Assembly (NCBI RefSeq): GCF_000327285.1
Contig: NZ_HE998567.1
Coordinates: 563,036 to 627,035 of the forward strand
Reading direction: 5' to 3'
From: Holdemania massiliensis AP2
GTDB taxonomy: Bacteria; Bacillota_I; Bacilli_A; Erysipelotrichales; Erysipelotrichaceae
DNA: 64,000 bases
Positions 12,833-23,622 of the stretch are shown here, one piece after another; position 1 is the stretch's first letter, and each line of letters begins with the position of its first letter. Position numbers and translations under genes: made by a program. The notes beneath the pieces are model-generated. The model was not told the origin of the DNA and made no database searches. It saw only the letters and a program-made list of their open reading frames with translations.

Positions 12833-13675
12833 TTAATACTGCCGGAATTCCATTGCGTCCAGAATCGCGATCAGCTGCTGCGTGTTCATGTCCATCTGAC
12901 GAATCGCATCACGCGTCTGCCGATAGACTTCAGTCATCGCATCCTGCGCCTGGCCTAATCCCAATATTGTGACATAAGTCGATTTTTTATTGTCCAAGTC
13001 GCTGGCTGATTTGCCCAGCTCCTTGCTGCTTTTGGTAACATCCAGAATATCGTCCTGAATCTGAAAGGCCAGGCCCATTAAAGCGCCGATACGCCGCCAT
13101 TGCGAAATCGCAGCGTCCTGTCCGGCTAAAATAGCTCCCATGACCAAAGGCGCCGTAAACAGACAGCCGGTTTTATAAAGATGAACTTCCTTCAGCTGTT
13201 CCAGCGTCACCGCCGCACTGTTTTCTGCTTCCAAATCTTTAATCTGGCCGAGGATCATCCCTTCGGCACCGCCGGCAGAAGCTAATTCCTTTACGATTTT
13301 CAAGGTTTTCATAGGATCCGCGCTGCTTTCTGCGGCGAGTGCAAAAGCCTGCGTCAGTAAACCATCGCCCGCCAGGATAGCCGTGGCTTCATTAAACTGC
13401 TTATGGCAGGTCTTGCGGCCGCGGCGGTAATCATCGTTGTCCATTGCCGGCAGATCGTCATGGATCAGAGAATAGGTATGCATCATTTCCAAAGCTCCGG
13501 CAGCCATGAAACCATCCTTTGCAACTAAGCCATAACCTTCCATAACCGCAAACAACAGCTGTGGGCGCAGCCGCTTCCCCTTTCCCATCAGCGAATACTC
13601 CATCGCTTCGCTGACTTCAGAGTGTTTCAGCAGCCGGCACTGACGCTGCAGGAATTCTTCAAATTCATTCATCAT
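12833..13675 (-). CDS. ispA: Farnesyl/geranylgeranyl diphosphate synthase
   Basis: Trans-prenyltransferase joining IPP to allylic diphosphates. 280 aa. First aspartate-rich motif HDDLPAMDNDD (72-82) and second QIQDDILD are intact. ATGA overlap (13672-13675) with xseB means coupled translation. Gene order xseA-xseB-ispA-dxs is a widespread arrangement. Chain length (C15 or C20) cannot be settled from the motif alone. Confidence 0.92.
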   Translation of the reverse strand: MMNEFEEFLQRQCRLLKHSEVSEAMEYSLMGKGKRLRPQLLFAVMEGYGLVAKDGFMAAGALEMMHTYSLIHDDLPAMDNDDYRRGRKTCHKQFNEATAILAGDGLLTQAFALAAESSADPMKTLKIVKELASAGGAEGMILGQIKDLEAENSAAVTLEQLKEVHLYKTGCLFTAPLVMGAILAGQDAAISQWRRIGALMGLAFQIQDDILDVTKSSKELGKSASDLDNKKSTYVTILGLGQAQDAMTEVYRQTRDAIRQMDMNTQQLIAILDAMEFRQY

Positions 13676-13893
13676 TCGTTTTCACCCTGACCTTCCTTTG
13701 TCTGGTGGCGAAGCATCAGCTCCTGGACTTTATTTTCATAGCCCTGAAGCTGTGTATCTAGATCCTGAACTAAATTCAAGCCTTCCTCAAACAGTCCGAT
13801 CGCTTCTTCCAAAGCAATTTCATTTTTCTCGAGCAGCGATACGATTTGATCAAGCCGATCCATGGATTGTTCAAATGTGGGTTTCTCGCTCAT
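13672..13893 (-). CDS. xseB: Exodeoxyribonuclease VII small subunit
   Basis: 73 aa, all-helical small subunit of ExoVII. The family pattern FEQSMDRLDQIVSLLE and the Leu/Glu-rich second helix are clear. It overlaps xseA by four bases upstream and ispA by four bases downstream. It acts in a complex with XseA. Confidence 0.93.
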   Translation of the reverse strand: MSEKPTFEQSMDRLDQIVSLLEKNEIALEEAIGLFEEGLNLVQDLDTQLQGYENKVQELMLRHQTKEGQGENE

Positions 13894-15221
13894 GCCTGTT
13901 CCTCCTTTTCCTTAACGACAGCCGTGATCTGGCCGTCATGCAGACGAATCTGCATTTCTTCCTGAATTTTTACTTCCTGTACGGAACGAACCAAATGTCC
14001 GTTCTGCGCGATCAGGCCGTAGCCTCGCCCCAAAATTTTCAATGGAGAATAGGCATCCATCAGCCGGATCTTTTCTTTCAGCTGCTGCTGGCGAAGCATC
14101 AGCTGTTGTTTCTGATGGTGATTGAGATTCAGCCGCAGCTGTCCTAAACGCTGCTGCTGCAGATAGACATGCTTGGATGTCTGGTTCAGCAGAATCGCGC
14201 TGACCTGATCTAAGCGCGCCCGTTGGGTGCGCACGCGCTGACTGGTGTTCTGCAGTCTTGAAGTATTGTAATCCAAACGCATTTGAACCGGCTGAAGCAA
14301 AGTCATCGGATCTTGGAAAATCCGGCTTTCAGTCTGCTGCTCATAACGCTGCCGCTGCATCCGTAGTTTTTGATGAATCAAATAAATCAGCTGCTGACGT
14401 TGCCGCAGACAATATCCCTGGACTTCCGCCAGCTGCGGCGTTGCCATTTCGGCAGCCCCGGTTGGCGTAGGCGCCCGCCGATCGGCAACCAGATCGGCAA
14501 TCGTAACGTCGACTTCATGCCCTACACCGCAGATCACCGGCGTCTTTAGATTCGCCAGTGTTCGGGCTACGCACTCCTCATTGAATGACCATAGATCTTC
14601 GATGGATCCGCCCCCACGGGCTAATATCATAACATCAAAGTTCAGTGCATCCGCCTGTCTCAGCGCCGCGCAGATCTGAGCCGCTGCCCCTTCACCCTGA
14701 ACCAGTACCGGAATTTCGCTCACCTGAGCAACCGGCCAGCGCCGTGCCAGCGTCGTGATCACGTCCTGCCGGGCGGCCGTGTTTTTACCGGTAATGACAA
14801 CGATTCGCATCGGATAGACGGGAATCGGCTTTTTTCTGGCGGGATCAAACAATCCTTCGTTATGCAGCCGGCGTTTGAGTTCTTCAAATTTTAAATACAG
14901 ATCGCCTAAGCCGGTCGGCTTCATTGCCGTAACATAAAGCTGAAGCTGTCCGCTGGATTCAAAGATCGAGGTGTTGGCCTGGACTAGGACAGAGTCGCCC
15001 TCTTTCGGCTTGAATTGGCAGCGAACGGCGTTGGAAGCAAACATTACGCAGCTGATTCGGGACTTCTCATCTTTTAATGTAAAGTACCAATGTCCGCTGC
15101 GATGAGCCGTAAAATTGGATATTTCACCGGCAACGATCACCCTTTGGATCAAAGGATCCTGATCCAGTTTTCCTTTCAGGTAGCGGACAAGGGCGCTGAC
15201 GCTCAGCTGCCGGTTTCTCAT
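13890..15221 (-). CDS. xseA: Exodeoxyribonuclease VII large subunit
   Basis: Catalytic subunit of the single-strand-specific nuclease ExoVII. 443 aa. N-terminal OB fold (about 1-105) with the family stretch SGHWYFTLKD, followed by the catalytic core with ARGGGSIEDLWSFN, CGVGHEVD and the RAPTPTGAAE motif, then a long glutamine/arginine-rich coiled coil. Overlaps nusB by four bases (15218-15221) and xseB by four. In Bacillus folD lies between nusB and xseA; it is missing here. Confidence 0.95.
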   Translation of the reverse strand: MRNRQLSVSALVRYLKGKLDQDPLIQRVIVAGEISNFTAHRSGHWYFTLKDEKSRISCVMFASNAVRCQFKPKEGDSVLVQANTSIFESSGQLQLYVTAMKPTGLGDLYLKFEELKRRLHNEGLFDPARKKPIPVYPMRIVVITGKNTAARQDVITTLARRWPVAQVSEIPVLVQGEGAAAQICAALRQADALNFDVMILARGGGSIEDLWSFNEECVARTLANLKTPVICGVGHEVDVTIADLVADRRAPTPTGAAEMATPQLAEVQGYCLRQRQQLIYLIHQKLRMQRQRYEQQTESRIFQDPMTLLQPVQMRLDYNTSRLQNTSQRVRTQRARLDQVSAILLNQTSKHVYLQQQRLGQLRLNLNHHQKQQLMLRQQQLKEKIRLMDAYSPLKILGRGYGLIAQNGHLVRSVQEVKIQEEMQIRLHDGQITAVVKEKEEQA

Positions 15222-15595
15222 ATTCTGTCCAATACGCCGTTAATCAGTCGATACGCTTCATCATCGCAGTAATCTTTTGCTAACCGCACGGCTTCATCAA
15301 TAATAATCGCTGCCGAAGCTGTCTGATGATCCAATTCACTGCACGCTAAAAGCAGGATTGCCTGTTCGAGCACACCTAAGCGCTCAAAATTCCAGTCCTT
15401 TAAAGTCTCGTTAATGTATTGAATATATCGTTTTTCATTGTCCAAAGTATCCAGAATCAAAATATGGCCGAAATCGTCCAGCTCTTCTGGTTTCATTTCC
15501 ATCACTTCTTCAATGATTTCATCTATCGGTTTGTTCAACAGACGATGCTGATACAAACAGATCATCGCTTTTTCTCTACAACTATGTCGGTTCAT
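15218..15595 (-). CDS. nusB: Transcription antitermination factor NusB
   Basis: 125-aa helical protein that with NusE (S10) binds boxA in rRNA leaders. The N-terminal RREKAM-like stretch (HSCREKAMICLYQ) and the C-terminal IDEAVRLAKDY / FINGVLD-type signature (RLINGVLDRI) are present. GGAGGG lies seven bases before the ATG. First gene of the nusB-xseA-xseB-ispA-dxs block, in which all junctions overlap or nearly touch. Confidence 0.93.
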   Translation of the reverse strand: MNRHSCREKAMICLYQHRLLNKPIDEIIEEVMEMKPEELDDFGHILILDTLDNEKRYIQYINETLKDWNFERLGVLEQAILLLACSELDHQTASAAIIIDEAVRLAKDYCDDEAYRLINGVLDRI

Positions 15596-15736
15596 GTTAA
15601 CCCTCCGCTCATTGTATTATTTTAGCATGAAAAACGGTTTGGCGAAACTCTTTCTCATGCCTTTTTACGGACTTTTGATTTGCCTTTTTTTTAACATTCG
15701 TATAGAATGGAAAACAGAACAGAAAGAAGGATCGAT

Positions 15737-16294
15737 ATGCGTTCTGCCTCATTCCCCGCTCGGTTATGGGGACATTTCAAGACGATTACGCTGCATAAGC
15801 TGCGGGTCACGCGGCTGTGTTTTAAAATGGGATTAATCAAACAGGGGCTGCTCCATGATCTGTCCAAATACAGTCCGATCGAATTCTGGTCAGGCGTCCG
15901 TTATTTTCAAGGATACCGCTCACCCATTGACGCTGAAAAAGAAGCCAAGGGTTATTCTGAGGGCTGGCTGCATCACAAAGGACATAACAAGCATCATTGG
16001 GAGTATTGGATTGACCGAAACAAGCAATGCGCCGGGCTATTCTGCGTCGAAATGCCGAAGCGCTATGTCGCGGAGATGGTCTGCGATCGGATCGCGGCCT
16101 GTCAGACATATCAGAAAGAAAAATATACGGATGCTTCCGCAATCGAGTATTTCCAGCGTGGCAGTGATCGCCAGTTCATGCATCCAGAGACTGCCGCTTT
16201 GCTCCAAACATATTTAGAATGGGTAAGGGATGATGGGATTGATGCGGCTTTTAAAAAGATAAAACAAGACTGGCGTAGAACGAAATCTAACTAA
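15737..16294 (+). CDS. DUF5662 family protein
   Basis: 185 aa. Contains LLHDLSKYSPIEFW and a His-rich HHKGHNKHHWEYW, the characteristic pattern of the DUF5662 family, which looks like a metal-binding helical (HD-like) fold. The biochemical role is unknown. AGAAGG lies six bases before the ATG at 15737; the frame is open earlier (15707) but without a ribosome site. Divergent from nusB and followed by a terminator. Confidence 0.7.
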   Translation: MRSASFPARLWGHFKTITLHKLRVTRLCFKMGLIKQGLLHDLSKYSPIEFWSGVRYFQGYRSPIDAEKEAKGYSEGWLHHKGHNKHHWEYWIDRNKQCAGLFCVEMPKRYVAEMVCDRIAACQTYQKEKYTDASAIEYFQRGSDRQFMHPETAALLQTYLEWVRDDGIDAAFKKIKQDWRRTKSN

Positions 16295-16620
16295 ATAAAA
16301 GTTCTTACAAAGCTTGAGAGATTCCGATAAATCTTCGTGCCGTCAAATTGAGCAGTTCACCGCGGCTGCTTTTTTATTTACGCTCTCTAACACCCGATTT
16401 CTTTTTTCTTCCATCTTTCAGCTGTCAATCCTTACATAAAGCTGGCTGTCAAAAATTCCATTTTGAAGAGAAAAAAGATAATTCTAGCGCTGAAAAGAAA
16501 ACTTGTCGGTTCTCAATCTACGCTTTAAAATGACAAGTGGAAAAGCTCTGTTCTGCTGAAAGCATGAAATCCACTCCCTTTTCAATGGATTTTGGCCGAA
16601 CAGCTAGGATGAGGTCCTGT
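16295..16620 (+). other. 326-base intergenic region with one terminator
   Basis: Between the DUF5662 gene and the nuclease gene. Apart from the terminator at 16351-16376 I see no coding remnant or RNA. Frames upstream of 16621 are open back to a GTG at 16537 but lack a ribosome site and are not protein-like. Confidence 0.5.
16351..16376 (+). terminator. Terminator after the DUF5662 gene
   Basis: Five-pair stem (16351-16355 with 16366-16370) with GC-rich loop, followed by TTTTTATTTA. Confidence 0.5.
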
Positions 16621-18222
16621 ATGCGACATGTCGATTTAACCCAATTACCTCGGGACAAGCGTAATTATATTGCCTGGAATCAGGCCGCAGGTTTTCAGAT
16701 TCCGTTTATCTATGATCATCTTCGCGGTGAAATGACGATTCTCCAAGCGAACAAAGGAAAACATGGGGAAGCTATCCTGGAGATTGAATTTGAGAATCGA
16801 ATTATTCACTCGGTACCTGCCAGTTCTGTCAAAAATTGCATCCTGGGCCGGATTCTTCAAACCCGTTCTTTTGATTTCGTCACCGTTATCGGGCAGCAGT
16901 TTCAAGATGAGCGGCGCCATTATCAGATTGTTGGTCAGCGGCGCGGCGTTCTGAAATCCAACCCGCAGGCGACGCAGCGGGAAGTAGAAATTCTTTGTTT
17001 TTTGTGCGGGGCAAAAACATGGATGGCGGAAGAGCGGGTATTGCCGCCAAAGAACTGTGCATGCCGCCGATGCCGATATTCCCCATTGTCCGGAAGGCCT
17101 TCCATTGTCGAAACCGATCCCTGGATGATCCCGTTCTTTCCTGGTGGGATTGCGCAGGCCAGACAGTACACGCACGGTCAGAATCAGAAGCTTCGTTTTC
17201 GCTGTCCCTATTGCGGGAAAATAAGGGAAAAAGCGATCGCGATCTCAACTTTAAGCCGCACGCATTCGATCGGCTGTGCCTGTTGTTGGTCGGTTGGCCG
17301 TTCCTTTCCTCATCGGCTGATTAAATGTGTTTTGGACAGTCTTAAAGTCCCATATATTCAGGAAGCTTCAAGAAAAGATCTGCCTTGGGCTCAGACGTAT
17401 TCCTATGACTTTTATTTACCTGAGCTGAATGCGATCATTGAAGCCCATGGGAAGCAGCATTACGAAGAAGGAACAGGTTATTTTAAGAATGCGCTGAAAA
17501 AAAACAGAACGGCCGACCTCCATAAGAAGCAGCTGGCTTGTGATCATGGAATTCCGCCTTTCCGATACATTGAGATCAACTGCCGAAAGAGTGAAACAGA
17601 ATTCATAAAGAATAATCTTCTCCGCTCTCCCCTGCCTGCACTTCTGAACAGCGATCTGACGGAGCTTGATTGGCTGCAGATAACAAGAACTGCCTGGAAA
17701 TCAGAGAAATTAAGTATCCTTGCCTACAGTCTCGATAATCCAGACAAATCAGTGCGAAATATCGCAAAGCATTTCGGGGTTGGCCGGGATCTGGTCAAAG
17801 AGGTTCAAGTCAGCGCCGGCATTTACGATGCCGCCAAAGAGCGAAAGCTGGGTGTAAAGCGTCAGCAGGCATTCTACGCTGATCGAACAAAACTGCGGGA
17901 TGAAAAAATATGTCAGCTTAAACGCAGTCATCCCCAATTCTCTACGCAGGATATCGCTGAAAGGGTGGGGATGGAGCGGCATGCGGTATATCGGATTTTA
18001 CAGCAAAAGGGTCTCTATGACGATCAAACTGAGAAAGCAAATAAGCATTTAAAAATTTCTGCTTCCCGGAAAAGAATAAAAGACTCTGAGATTCGGCAGA
18101 TCTGCCAGCTCAAGCTCGATAATCCTGAGATTTCAGCACGTGAAGCAGGACGAATGACCGGTCATGGTCATAGTACGATTATGCGGATTTGGTCTGATAA
18201 CCAACTCATTAAGTGCCGATAA
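16621..18222 (+). CDS. Zinc-ribbon, Vsr-like nuclease and triple-HTH protein
   Basis: 533-aa multidomain protein. An N-terminal beta-rich region (about 1-115) has no assigned function. Next come two Cys clusters that look like zinc ribbons: C126/C129 with C146/C148/C151, and C195/C198 with C219/C221/C222. A Vsr/EDxHD-type restriction-like nuclease core follows: Asp263 (YSYDFYLPE), Glu274, His276, Lys278 and His280 (IIEAHGKQHYE), closing with a YIEINC strand. The C-terminus has three successive HTH-like units (about 365-400, 428-465, 490-531). The layout resembles phage and homing-type endonucleases of Bacillota. No terminase, integrase or host intron is nearby. Start chosen at 16621 because AGGATGAGG lies six bases before it. 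Function is inferred from fold only. Confidence 0.65.
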   Translation: MRHVDLTQLPRDKRNYIAWNQAAGFQIPFIYDHLRGEMTILQANKGKHGEAILEIEFENRIIHSVPASSVKNCILGRILQTRSFDFVTVIGQQFQDERRHYQIVGQRRGVLKSNPQATQREVEILCFLCGAKTWMAEERVLPPKNCACRRCRYSPLSGRPSIVETDPWMIPFFPGGIAQARQYTHGQNQKLRFRCPYCGKIREKAIAISTLSRTHSIGCACCWSVGRSFPHRLIKCVLDSLKVPYIQEASRKDLPWAQTYSYDFYLPELNAIIEAHGKQHYEEGTGYFKNALKKNRTADLHKKQLACDHGIPPFRYIEINCRKSETEFIKNNLLRSPLPALLNSDLTELDWLQITRTAWKSEKLSILAYSLDNPDKSVRNIAKHFGVGRDLVKEVQVSAGIYDAAKERKLGVKRQQAFYADRTKLRDEKICQLKRSHPQFSTQDIAERVGMERHAVYRILQQKGLYDDQTEKANKHLKISASRKRIKDSEIRQICQLKLDNPEISAREAGRMTGHGHSTIMRIWSDNQLIKCR

Positions 18223-18426
18223 CGATCCAATGATAGCGAAGTTGAATCAGACTCAGAAAACATCGCTCAGTGAGCAAAGTTCAGCACAAAACAGCGATTC
18301 TCTGCAATCTCATCATGATATTGAAAAAACGTCTCTGTGCTTTCGTCATCAGATAATCTGAAACAGAAGCAAGAAACGTTTGAATGTCGGTTTGATTTCA
18401 AAAGACAGATCCTGAATCACTCAAGA

Positions 18427-20532
18427 TCAGTTGTATGCCTGCAGGATGCGATCGAGTTCTTTCTGGGTAACCGGGATCGCGGAACCATGCCGGACATCTT
18501 CATTCGGCAAGGTGTATTCCCCTTCCGCAAGCCACTGAAAGTCTGCGGTTTCGCCAAGCTGAGAGAAGCGGGCAATATAGAAGCATTGATTCGGGTAATT
18601 GTCAACGTAGAGATAGTACACTCCCGGCTCATGCAGGGACGGCAGCGTAAACGGACCTTCAATATATTTGCGATTGTAGATAAACAGGTCGTCATAGCGG
18701 CGTGTAAAGCCCTGACTTAAATCCTGAGTGCTCGTATAGAAAATTGTCTGTGCGGCTTCGCGTTCATCTTTATAAAGCATCCAATATTGGCCATGCATGC
18801 GCAGAATCGTGCCGTCAATCACTTTGTAGCCCGGATTAAACAGCGCCATCGGATAAGTAAATGTCGCGAAATCCTGAGTCGTTACCGCAAACATCGAACC
18901 GCTCTTGGGATCCTGCGCATCGGAATAATAGATCACATAATCCCCTGTTTCAGGATCATACGTCATTTCTGGAGCCCAGGCCCGGCTTCCGGTACTGTAT
19001 AAGCCTTTGTCAAACCAGGCCACGCGATGCAGTCCATGATCGCTGAAATTCACCAAATCTTCGCTTTTCCAGACATAAATGGATGGATTGTCATAGCCTT
19101 CTGTCGCTAGAATAACAAACTTTCCTTCTTTGTCACGGCCGATAAACGGATCCCGCACACGTCCGGTTCCCAAATTGCTGGTTAAAATGGATTTTCCCTG
19201 ATTGAGGTCAGTCCAATGCAGACCGTCCTGACTGTAGGCAAACTTTCCGGTTTCCTTGCCGAGATCGCCATTAAAGTAGGACAGGATGTAGCCGGCATAA
19301 GCATCGAGGACAACCGCGTCCATCGTCAAAGTATCCTTGAGTTCTCCCTGCATCAGCGTCGCTTCCAGCTGTACAGGGACGCGTTCCTCTTCCGGATGGG
19401 TCTTGATCAGAACGTTCTTTTCTAAACGCAGATTACCGCTGATGACCTTCCATTCAATCTGGCTGCCATTTTCTGCGATCGTGGGCAGTGAGCTTCCAGC
19501 GTTCAATAGTGTTCCTAATGTAATCGGCAGCGCTTTGACATCACGCAGCAGCTTGGTCGCCGGTGTTTCAGCGCGGATTGTGATCAGATAATCGCGTTGG
19601 AATGAACGATTCTTGACTTTCGTTGTCAAGGTCAGCGTCACTTCCTGATCCCCTTGTTCAACCGTGGGTTTTGTGATCACTCCGGCATTGTTCTCCACCT
19701 TTAAAAACGTGGGATTGCTGCTCGTCCATTGCGCTTCATACTGACTGTCCACTTCCGGATACAGCGTTAAATTTTCCTGCAGATCTTCCGCATTGGGGAT
19801 GGTGATTTCACTGAGCAGAACTTCGGGGTAAAAGCGGTCGAATTCATCTTCAACCTCCGCTGCACTCAACGCTTTTTTACGGATTTGGAAGTCCTGAAAC
19901 TGTCCTTCCATACAATCGCCGTAAGCAATCGCATCCTTGCCGACAACCAGCCACGATTTTTCGATTTGATTGATTGAGGCTCCGATCTGACCGTTCATCG
20001 CTGGCTGTCCGTTAAGATAAACGGATACCTGAGTTGCTTGGAAGACTAGCACGACTTGGTTGTAGCGATGGGTGTTCAGGGTAAATTCACTGTTGGAAAT
20101 CAGCCATTGTTCCTGTCCTTCCGCCTTCATCTGCAAAGCCATCCCCTGCAGTGTACCCTCTTCCCGCGCGGTCAGATTGGTCAGCTTCATGATCTCCGCC
20201 TGATCATTGACGACGGAAATCAAAGGCAAATCCGGGACATTGGTTGCTGGTTTGATCCAGAAACTGATTGTTGCCGTATCACTGCCATTTAAGATCGTGC
20301 TTTCCATCGTATGTTCCGCATCATTCGTCAAAAGATAAGCATCCATCTTAATTCCTTCCCGCCATGTCCATTCCGGGGCTTTGGTGGAATTGTAATATTC
20401 GACTTCGGCCGTATCCACGGCCTGACTGGTGTCGGTAATGTGGGTGGTTTTTGTATTTTTTTGACAGCCGCCGAGCAGGCAAAGGCTCAGCAGTGAAAGA
20501 ATCATCTTATTGAGTACTGACAGAGAAATCAT
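18427..20532 (-). CDS. GH43-like lipoprotein with LamG and Ig-like domains
   Basis: 701-aa predicted surface lipoprotein; lipobox LLGGC with Cys23. A LamG/concanavalin-like domain spans about 60-230; immunoglobulin-like segments follow (about 240-410, including a WTSSNP-type Ig strand); the last 290 residues form a five-bladed-propeller glycosidase domain like GH43, with RDPF, VIDGT and IEGPF supplying the usual Asp, Asp and Glu. Likely an arabinan/xylan- or host-glycan-processing enzyme held on the membrane. SD and ATG (20532) are very close together (AAAGGA then ATG), so an internal start at 20505 remains possible, though it would lose the charged N-region. No transporter is beside it. Confidence 0.75.
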   Translation of the reverse strand: MISLSVLNKMILSLLSLCLLGGCQKNTKTTHITDTSQAVDTAEVEYYNSTKAPEWTWREGIKMDAYLLTNDAEHTMESTILNGSDTATISFWIKPATNVPDLPLISVVNDQAEIMKLTNLTAREEGTLQGMALQMKAEGQEQWLISNSEFTLNTHRYNQVVLVFQATQVSVYLNGQPAMNGQIGASINQIEKSWLVVGKDAIAYGDCMEGQFQDFQIRKKALSAAEVEDEFDRFYPEVLLSEITIPNAEDLQENLTLYPEVDSQYEAQWTSSNPTFLKVENNAGVITKPTVEQGDQEVTLTLTTKVKNRSFQRDYLITIRAETPATKLLRDVKALPITLGTLLNAGSSLPTIAENGSQIEWKVISGNLRLEKNVLIKTHPEEERVPVQLEATLMQGELKDTLTMDAVVLDAYAGYILSYFNGDLGKETGKFAYSQDGLHWTDLNQGKSILTSNLGTGRVRDPFIGRDKEGKFVILATEGYDNPSIYVWKSEDLVNFSDHGLHRVAWFDKGLYSTGSRAWAPEMTYDPETGDYVIYYSDAQDPKSGSMFAVTTQDFATFTYPMALFNPGYKVIDGTILRMHGQYWMLYKDEREAAQTIFYTSTQDLSQGFTRRYDDLFIYNRKYIEGPFTLPSLHEPGVYYLYVDNYPNQCFYIARFSQLGETADFQWLAEGEYTLPNEDVRHGSAIPVTQKELDRILQAYN

Positions 20533-20562
20533 TCCTTTCTTCTATTCTTTCTTCTTAGTATA

Positions 20563-20591
20563 CAAGAAAATAAGCATGAACACCATGCTTA
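20563..20591 (-). terminator. Terminator overlapping the amidohydrolase stop
   Basis: Eight-pair perfect stem (20571-20578 with 20584-20591), 5-base loop, then TTTTCTTGTA on the minus strand. The stop codon 20589-20591 is part of the stem. Confidence 0.75.
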
Positions 20592-21827
20592 CTTAAGGGT
20601 TTCGGCAACCAGTTTCTTCATTAACTGACGCTGTTTGGCAATGAGTTGAGTTTCATCAAGACCGCATAACTGTCTGTTTTTGACTTTCCAGTTCCCCGCA
20701 ACCATGACGTGTTCAATCCATTCTGATCGTCCGTCAAAGATCAAGTTCTGCAGGACATCGCTGAAATCGGACGTACTGATTAAAGGCTGAAAGTCAGGTT
20801 CATGAAGCCGCAGGAAGATCAGATCGGCCTGCATCCCGGGTTTCAAAATTCCCGTCTGCGGCCAGCCACTGCAGCGAGCACCCCATTCGGTTGCCATTTT
20901 CCAAACAGTTTGTGCAGGATTTGGGACATGTTGATCACGCAGAAGTAAATATTCCAATTTCATGACATCCATCATCTGCAGTCTTCCCCAATCGGTGCCA
21001 AGTCCGATTTCAATATCGTTATCGAGCATGATTTTTAACGGACTGACGCCATTCTGCGATTTTAGATTGGAGATGGGACAGTTGATCATTCGAACGTGGT
21101 TCTGTGCCGCCAGCTGAATCGCTTCTTCCGAGGCTTTGCAATTATGAATTAAAACGCTATGTTCGTCCAATAATCCCGCCTGGACATAAGCTTCGATGGT
21201 GTGCGCATAGTCCTTCGATTGAATTGTTTTTACGGCCAGTTCGGTTTCCATACAATGCGCCTTAAATAAAGCTGCAGGATAATTTCGTTTCCATGCTTGC
21301 GCCTGGGCGCAGGCTTCCACGGACCATCCGCTTTCTTCCGGCAAAGGCAAAGCGGTTCTCAATAAGGGCTGATCGTCTAACTGAGAAGGATTGTCAGCTT
21401 CCAAAGTTAAACGTATCCCGCTCAACTCCCCTGCCTTTTTCTTCGCTTTATAATCCTGTTGGAATAAGCGGCAGTCAAAAACGGTGGTTATCCCCTGTTT
21501 CAGCATGGAACTGTATTCATACAAAGACAGCGGGACGCGTTCTTCCTCAGTACATTGACCCAATGCTCTGATAAAACGTTGCTGAATCTGGCCCTGGGGT
21601 GAATCATTAAGCCATTGAGCCACTGGCATATCCATAAACAAACCGTGGGTGACTGTACTTGTACCATGAAAATGGGCGTTCACCATTCCAGGAAGCACCA
21701 GTAAATCATGGCAATCCAGTTCATCACCGCCATCATCAAAATCGACAATTTGATCGGAATGCAAAAAGAGATCTTGCTGAATCAGATGCGATTGTGAGTC
21801 AAGCTGCCAGACATTTTTTAATTTCAT
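20589..21827 (-). CDS. Metal-dependent amidohydrolase (TRZ/ATZ, SsnA-like)
   Basis: Cytosolic hydrolase of the amidohydrolase superfamily, 412 aa, probably a deaminase or chlorohydrolase-type enzyme. Metal-site markers: HxH at 52-54 (NAHFHG), the FKAHCMETE segment, His in LIHNCK and Asp in GLGTDW. Substrate not deducible; relatives act on guanine, S-adenosylhomocysteine or aminopyrimidines. Three in-frame ATGs are close together; I use the third (21827) because GAGG is then nine bases upstream. Own extended -10 promoter at 21859-21867. Confidence 0.8.
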   Translation of the reverse strand: MKLKNVWQLDSQSHLIQQDLFLHSDQIVDFDDGGDELDCHDLLVLPGMVNAHFHGTSTVTHGLFMDMPVAQWLNDSPQGQIQQRFIRALGQCTEEERVPLSLYEYSSMLKQGITTVFDCRLFQQDYKAKKKAGELSGIRLTLEADNPSQLDDQPLLRTALPLPEESGWSVEACAQAQAWKRNYPAALFKAHCMETELAVKTIQSKDYAHTIEAYVQAGLLDEHSVLIHNCKASEEAIQLAAQNHVRMINCPISNLKSQNGVSPLKIMLDNDIEIGLGTDWGRLQMMDVMKLEYLLLRDQHVPNPAQTVWKMATEWGARCSGWPQTGILKPGMQADLIFLRLHEPDFQPLISTSDFSDVLQNLIFDGRSEWIEHVMVAGNWKVKNRQLCGLDETQLIAKQRQLMKKLVAETLK

Positions 21828-21858
21828 TGTCATCTTCCTCATCTATTTCCTTAACCAA

Positions 21859-21867
21859 AGTATACCA
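21859..21867 (-). promoter_or_regulatory. Extended -10 promoter of the amidohydrolase gene
   Basis: TGGTATACT on the minus strand, 32-40 bases before the start codon. Confidence 0.5.
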
Positions 21868-21895
21868 TATTCTCCTGATTCTTGGCTTTGGATTA

Positions 21896-21927
21896 AAGTA
21901 AAAGATGAGTCAGCTTCAACTCATCTT
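21896..21927 (-). terminator. Terminator of the AbiE-like operon
   Basis: Nine-pair perfect stem (21902-21910 with 21919-21927), followed on the minus strand by TTTACTTTAA. Lies 55 bases beyond the toxin stop. Confidence 0.7.
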
Positions 21928-21982
21928 GATCTATCTGATTCTCTATATAACAGTCTCGTTATTTCACTTTCATATGTGAAAC

Positions 21983-22952
21983 TTAGCTACTTCTTATTAC
22001 TCTATTTAACTCAACTTCATATTCTTTTATTACACTTACGATTTTATCAAAGGATATTTTTTCACCAAATAACATATTCTTCATGCTATCGTAATCTTTA
22101 GAAAAGATTTCTAATCCATCAGCAGCAGGAATCAGCTTTAGATTTCCAGACATAATATCATCATACTTTGCCCAATTACTTGCATAAAATTTCTTTTTAA
22201 AATCAATCACCGATTTTAACAGATTTAAGTTCTCAAAACTTTTTTCTTTAATATCGGTCAATAACATTTTATATACATCATAGAAATGTCTAGAATATCT
22301 TGTCGGATAATTCCCATTGACTCTGTTCGTTTCTCGATGAAGTATTGTGATTTTTTCGTAAAATGTTCTTAAAGAGTCAACGGCTACGACTTCAATGTTT
22401 TCGTTAAATACATTAGAATACACTTCTTCAATATATGTTTGTATTCTCCTTTTGCTTGCAGGAATAGGCTCAGCTAAACTCCCAATTTCTAGCCTAATTA
22501 CTTGTAATACAGAGCTATTCTGATGGTTTTTAGGATAATCAAAGCAAATTGTCTGTTCATCAGTTTCATCAATATAAAAACGATAATTTCTGTCTTTTAA
22601 AATTTCTTTAAAATCTTTTTGAAGTGTCGGCAAAAATACGCCACGAAGAAAAACTTTCGTGTCATCATTTAACTTGTCATTGAATTTTAATTGCTTGGTA
22701 TTACTTCTATCTTCATAAGGCTCTAGACTACCATAGCCCATAACCTTCCAATCCAAAGCCAAATCTATATCTTCTGAAAACCTTTCTATCAACTTATATA
22801 CTTTCGATAGACTTGTACCGCCTTTGAAAATAATAGAGTCTTTATATTTAAAATCTTTAAACAAATACTTTAAAATAATACAAACCCATAAATGTGTTTT
22901 GAATAACTAATTCCAACTCTTCACTTGAAATTTGTAATAGTTTGCTCGTCAT
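21983..22952 (-). pseudogene. AbiEii-type nucleotidyltransferase toxin, frameshifted
   Basis: The main open stretch (22864 down to 21983, 293 codons beginning at a TTG) carries the AbiEii/AbiGii core: FKGGTSLSKVYK and RFSEDIDLALDW, the nucleotidyltransferase motif GS/T...DxD. It lacks the family's N-terminus. That N-terminus is in another frame: an ATG at 22952, overlapping the antitoxin end, opens MTSKLLQISSEELEL and runs 31 codons to a stop at 22857-22859. Removing one base at about 22868 fuses the frames and restores KYLFKDFKYKD, as relatives read. A short in-frame loss before NTFMG is also likely. So the toxin is probably inactive unless frameshifting or an N-terminally short form is functional, or the base is a sequence error. 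Confidence 0.7.
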
Positions 22953-23547
22953 TTTTCTTTTGTATCCTTTCTAAAACCTCTTGAATCCAAAAAGGTAATT
23001 TTAAAGTATCCTTTAACAAATCTTCACTAATATTTTTAGAAAAAATTGTAAATTTTTGAATATCATTATTGCTAATGTTATTTTTTCCAATCGCTTTAAT
23101 GGCTTGTATCAGAATAGATAATTCTTTTGAATAAGAGGTGATATTTCTATTTGTTGTGTGTTTAAAAATAATCTTCTTATTCCTATAAAGATATTCTCTG
23201 TACGGTCCATCAGAAATATAAACATATTCGTTAGGCACTTGTGTAGAAAGGCCTGTGTAATTCAAGGCTGTATCCCCGGTTGGCGATATTGTCCACGAAA
23301 ATTTATCTGCAATCTTATCGGCAACAGCGTTTGTATCTGGATAAGAATATTCATTTAAAATCTCACTAAACTTAGGCTTTGTATATAATCCATCAATAAG
23401 TCTAGTAATCTTACCTTCTTCATTTAAACGATATAAAATGGATTTGATTGTATTTTTTGTTCCCAATCTGTAAAAATCATGAATCGAATAAATTTTACCT
23501 TTATTTTCAGTCATAATGTTTTCTATTTGAGTGGAAATCGAATTCAT
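22921..23547 (-). CDS. AbiEi/DUF6088-type antitoxin
   Basis: 208-aa winged-helix antitoxin and likely autorepressor of a type IV toxin-antitoxin pair. N-terminal wHTH (about 1-65: KIYSIHDFYRLG...RLNEEGKI) and the family segment SPTGDTALNYTGLSTQVP with YISDG. AAGGAGG lies eight bases before the ATG at 23547; an earlier frame start at 23592 is disfavoured. The 3' end overlaps the toxin's original ATG by 32 bases. AT-rich codon use differs from flanking housekeeping genes, indicating acquisition. Confidence 0.85.
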   Translation of the reverse strand: MNSISTQIENIMTENKGKIYSIHDFYRLGTKNTIKSILYRLNEEGKITRLIDGLYTKPKFSEILNEYSYPDTNAVADKIADKFSWTISPTGDTALNYTGLSTQVPNEYVYISDGPYREYLYRNKKIIFKHTTNRNITSYSKELSILIQAIKAIGKNNISNNDIQKFTIFSKNISEDLLKDTLKLPFWIQEVLERIQKKNDEQTITNFK

Positions 23548-23622
23548 TTGCATCGCCTCCTTGCACCTATAATTATATACTTTTGGGTGCATACAGTCAA
23601 TTTAAAAGAAATGATTTTCTCT

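Follow-up and report, generated by a model that had tools for sequence, protein, structure and literature searches.

The gene at positions 16621 to 18222 (+) of the window, the 64 000 nucleotide stretch of the Holdemania massiliensis AP2 chromosome analysed here, encodes a 533 aa zinc-ribbon/Vsr-fold protein with three HTH units. The product is probably a site-specific endonuclease of the free-standing homing kind found in phages (PHROGs family phrog_4538, with an EDxHD/Vsr-fold core). The gene probably reached its present position, flanked by a DUF5662 gene and a GH43-type gene, in a common ancestor of the three carrier species, with vertical descent from then on. The evidence points to a phage gene that was once mobile and is now passed on vertically. 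The comparisons below show the family and fold of the product, the conservation of its catalytic residues, the single locus with its empty counterpart, and purifying selection.

The ORF consists of 533 codons and starts with ATG. A mechanically called ORF opens earlier, with GTG 16537 as its first codon; the orthologues, however, begin at the equivalent of ATG 16621. A ribosome-binding site, GAGGT (16611..16615, +), was read from the sequence 5 nt 5' of this ATG, and GAGGTGAT precedes the equivalent ATG in the sister-species nuclease genes. The promoter-like match TTGTCG-17-TAAAAT (16503..16531, +) found by consensus scan is weak, because the scan gave a number of sites no higher than that in shuffled sequences.

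No model in Pfam or NCBIfam reached its cut-off with the 533 aa protein, for which only sub-threshold HTH matches were recovered, and a phmmer search against PDB sequences returned no useful match. Among the PHROGs profiles, phrog_4538 matched with E 1.8e-52 (protein residues 3-498 against positions 21-424 of 447), and the zinc/core part was matched by phrog_9084 (homing endonuclease, E 7.6e-27) and phrog_559 (HNH endonuclease by name, E 7e-21). The protein, which an earlier note made from the letters of this DNA had treated as an isolated oddity, is instead a full-length member of the phage family phrog_4538, with the same N-terminal/zinc/nuclease layout. Using tblastn, relatives were found in 214 phage records, mostly those of staphylococcal and enterococcal phages and several of them annotated as homing endonucleases; no relative was found in the plasmids searched. 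Overall identity of the Holdemania protein to the phage relatives is 21-31 %. Members of the family match DUF4379 treble clef, Zn ribbon, DUF559, NUMOD1 and I-HmuI-NUMOD-like models, and such a mix of nuclease and NUMOD modules is typical of homing endonucleases. The relationship to homing endonucleases that the note had suggested is borne out by the phrog_4538 match, the tblastn relatives and the structural matches to viral proteins described below.

The relatives in phages occupy positions expected of homing genes. One (L010) lies 5' of a tape-measure-like gene, that of Stau2 sits between the portal and prohead protease genes, and those of IME1348_01 and of the Staphylococcus cohnii and Staphylococcus arlettae prophages are located after the lysin gene. 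A survey (PMC10448857) describes homing genes near essential phage genes, and also interrupting tape-measure genes. A block of 1.58 kb bearing the gene is 98.4 % identical between the prophages of S. cohnii and S. arlettae, within flanks that are ~55-87 % identical, a signature of its recent transfer on its own. A phylum-wide profile search recovered mostly partial matches to the zinc region and one strong match (E 9e-118), in genome G405 (L055, G405:C28), on a contig that resembles a prophage, where the ORFs to either side look like phage structural genes; this close family member looks like a prophage gene. A further relative, in Lachnospiraceae NE2001 (L007, 5923-7459), has the same zinc-ribbon/core/HTH order as the Holdemania protein, but differs in being split by a frame change within the zinc region, in an E-x-D-G variant of the core and, as judged by eye, in a NUMOD1-like end and an HTH-like tail of two units. 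Around it lie transposase-like ORFs and duplicated sugar-nucleotide genes. Outside Holdemania the family tree is poorly resolved, so the phage donor cannot be named.

The protein opens with a beta region of ~115 residues, which the earlier note had not listed, and continues with two Cys clusters, the nuclease core and three C-terminal HTH units. The phage proteins of phrog_4538, and the Staphylococcus and Enterococcus phage proteins annotated as homing endonucleases, also have N-terminal beta, two Cys clusters, a Vsr-fold core with D-ExHGKQHYEE and HTH, in the same order. They differ in being encoded by phages, and most of those read terminate in one HTH plus a NUMOD-like tail; the Holdemania gene occupies a bacterial chromosomal locus, and its product has three HTH units and, in place of the first Glu of the catalytic signature, His. 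In the predicted model, residues 26-144 (16696..17052, +) form one or more SH3/Tudor-like barrels, with weak Tudor/chromo-barrel structure matches (Z 5.6-5.8) for residues 85-144; barrels of this type are common to the phage family members. Two zinc-ribbon-like Cys clusters had been noticed at the outset, and both are present, at C126-C151 and C195-C221. The first (C126/C129 ... C146/C148/C151; 16996..17073, +), in which the second pair is C146 or C148 together with C151, may form a zinc ribbon, to judge from the sequence. The second (C195/C198 ... C219/C221; 17203..17286, +), near-invariant in the family alignment, is a putative zinc ribbon or treble clef; its residues C195, C219 and C221 rank with the best conserved in the family, and relatives match the treble clef and Zn-ribbon models named above.

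The nuclease core, residues 228-343 (17302..17649, +), was delimited by structure matches and invariant residues and contains the sequence YDFYLP...EAHGKQHYEE, with D263 (codon at 17407), E274 (17440), H280 (17458) and D299 (17515). In an alignment of 18 relatives, D263, E274, G277, D299 and K302 are invariant and H280 is nearly so. An AlphaFold2 model built from 18 aligned family members had a mean pLDDT of 82, with most of the core at ~88-96. With VIA-align 2, the best matches of the model included two Vsr structures, 1cw0 (Z 9.4, 124 residues, rmsd 5.4) and 1vsr (Z 8.9, 106 residues, rmsd 2.9), as well as the I-Bth0305I homing-endonuclease catalytic domain (3r3p, Z 9.0, 96 of 97 residues, rmsd 3.5, 21 % identity). 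Two mitoribosomal chains, 9g6k and 9i05, score equally high over the core region, so the fold by itself does not give the function. With Foldseek, predicted structures of phage proteins in the viral library, several of them named homing endonuclease, matched with E values down to 2e-18, and Vsr only with E 0.3. A profile search with the core gave 3hrl at E 0.07 and 3r3p at E 0.4, both weak. The case for the fold is therefore made by VIA-align of the predicted model together with the viral-library matches; the core folded alone from a single sequence had a pLDDT of 31 and was excluded from the fold evidence. As modelled, the core is a Vsr-fold nuclease. This agrees with what the earlier note had proposed, in that the predicted model matches both Vsr and 3r3p, with the qualification that the fold was recovered by structure alignment, the profile comparison being weak.

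The shared fold raises the possibility of a Vsr-type mismatch-repair endonuclease, for which the matches to 1cw0 and 1vsr speak. We consider this most improbable, as by sequence the protein is nearest to families of phage homing endonucleases, which have extra zinc and HTH domains that Vsr lacks, and no methylase, cytosine methylases included, was seen alongside when the ORFs from 5000 to 32000 were read. The Holdemania protein differs from Vsr in its sequence family and its extra DNA-binding domains, and no methylase partner was seen. I-Bth0305I, the prototype of the EDxHD group, has the same catalytic-domain fold, and is encoded by a group I intron that lies in a phage gene (recA), a location not demanded of free-standing members. 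Its core is C-terminal (3r3p residues 167-263), whereas the core of the Holdemania protein is followed by the three HTH units and its gene has no intron match.

The name EDxHD stands for the signature residues E, D, H and D. The core had been described as EDxHD-like, and this holds for D263, H280 and the second Asp, D299, but not for the first Glu. The column aligned to the Glu of TPER in 3r3p contains Glu in most phage members (YPEK) and His231 in all three Holdemania proteins. It also varies in some phage members, where it is H, N or V; His is found in L013 and Asn in L012 and in the Lachnospiraceae relative. The substitution, together with three HTH units that resemble those of a DNA-binding protein, would suit a regulator that is catalytically dead but retains the nuclease fold. 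This is unlikely, given that D263, E274, H280, D299 and K302 are all kept in the three Holdemania species, that some phage relatives lack the first Glu too, and that the core has evolved no faster than the other domains.

The HTH units, located by repeat alignment and in the model, comprise residues 351-399 (17671..17817, +), 419-462 (17875..18006, +) and 487-526 (18079..18198, +). The second matches HTH_23 with E 1e-4, just short of the family cut-off. Pairwise alignment scores were 61, 46 and 60, relative to shuffle means of ~21-22, and none of 1000 shuffles reached the observed score for any pair. Each repeat contains a helical HTH triplet in the predicted model, and the three units, which the note had proposed, are by sequence comparison mutually homologous. 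Its view that the tandem tail is unusual needs to be divided: an HTH tail is usual in the phrog_4538 family, but the extension to three units was seen only in Holdemania.

The nuclease gene is found at one chromosomal site, between the DUF5662 and GH43-type genes, in all three carrier species (H. massiliensis AP2, Holdemania filiformis and Holdemania sp. Marseille-P2844). Its neighbours are nusB, xseA, DUF5662, GH43 and amidohydrolase genes, and no phage genes adjoin it, although closeness to phage genes is usual, if not strictly a defining feature, for the phrog_4538 family. No second copy was found in the genome from which the window comes, and the gene was absent from 93 other relatives searched. 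A natural empty site, which the earlier note had thought worth seeking in sister genomes, is present in a fourth congener (G001), where the same DUF5662 and GH43 genes lie end to end with 27 bp, including a hairpin, between their stop codons and no nuclease gene. The 27 bp spacer replaces the segment 16295..18426 (+) of the window, the edges of this insertion being approximate. As the empty and occupied sites are compared between species (G001 versus the three carriers), the empty site could be due to loss of the gene in G001. In that genome, which lacks the nuclease, an open frame of 495 codons (L059, G001:C59 1157-1678) encodes zinc-cluster units that are relatives of the family's zinc region. 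In Marseille-P2844, a transposase-like ORF, ISL3-like by eye and partly masked (L003 7972-9486), lies directly 3' of the nuclease gene, and is missing in H. filiformis.

Between Marseille-P2844 and H. filiformis (L003 and L004), the DNA identity of the nuclease gene is 95.5 %, within the range for seven neighbouring genes (93.9-99.2 %), and the gene has therefore diverged with the chromosome, with no recent re-import. In the family tree the three Holdemania proteins group together in a single, fully supported clade, the branch of which is long (1.7 changes per site), and protein identity over the deepest split is 69 %. NG86 counts were used for dN/dS because YN00 failed or was saturated for the deep pair, and gave an omega of ~0.12. 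The pN/pS ratio is 0.13 for the whole gene (Fisher p 7e-18) and 0.09-0.15 for single domains, and every domain of the nuclease is under purifying selection.

No group I intron was found in 13000-22000 using Rfam which, together with the ordinary neighbours, agrees with the earlier observation that there are no phage genes or intron nearby. No PADLOC family rose above noise, the best match (E 8e-4) covering 44 residues of the HTH region with a model named homing endonuclease. An AbiEi/AbiEii type IV toxin-antitoxin (abortive infection) pair is located 4 kb from the nuclease gene, at 21983-23592 (-), and is well matched in PADLOC (AbiEii E 3e-79, AbiEi E 2e-57). Relatives of AbiEii in two sister species are 47 % identical and on other contigs, so the AbiE spot beside the amidohydrolase gene looks variable; for the same reason the pair was rejected as a partner of the nuclease.

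These data bear on a host nuclease that was domesticated, having lost its mobility, and now cuts incoming phage or plasmid DNA or acts in genome maintenance. The single locus in three species, the 69 % protein identity over the deepest split, the strong purifying selection across all domains, the extended HTH tail and the genome without a second copy would each fit. Set against them are the PADLOC result, the lack of any conserved partner gene, methylase or immunity gene among those seen and the location of the sister-species AbiE relatives on other contigs; moreover, purifying selection over the same span is also to be expected if a homing gene is re-fixed from time to time. We regard domestication as a tentative alternative, and a domesticated defence role, which the note had raised, as possible, since a defence protein need not have a PADLOC model. 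The related case of a phage homing endonuclease immobilised at one site, its tail rebuilt from three HTH units and its activity used by the host, for example to cut invading DNA at a fixed sequence, is somewhat doubtful.

On the preferred reading, that of a site-specific endonuclease of phage homing origin, the protein would cleave DNA at a target and either still home or serve the host. A long DNA site would be read by the three HTH units together with the N-terminal barrels and the zinc ribbons, and the Vsr-type core (D263, E274, H280 and D299) would cut it with a metal ion; metal-dependent hydrolysis by EDxHD enzymes has been reviewed (PMC3943268). In a cell receiving or carrying the empty allele, the break would then be repaired with the occupied allele as template, and the gene thereby copied in. 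A target at the empty DUF5662-GH43 junction would make the Holdemania gene a resident homing gene; otherwise, it may serve the host. The Holdemania gene is thus either a resident selfish gene that rarely homes or a domesticated host tool. The low identity to phage relatives, the long Holdemania branch and His231 in place of the first Glu count against the preferred reading.

No paper linking Holdemania with homing endonucleases was found in the literature library searched. The kind of enzyme is already known; its less usual features are the tail of three HTH units and the fact that, outside phage DNA, it is inherited stably and vertically. A fold and a likely activity can also be suggested for phrog_4538, the function of which is listed as unknown in PHROGs. 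One nuclease family appears to have taken up two ways of life, as a mobile gene in phages and as an apparently stationary one in a bacterial lineage, and four genomes of one genus with one empty site make the question of when a homing gene becomes a host gene testable.
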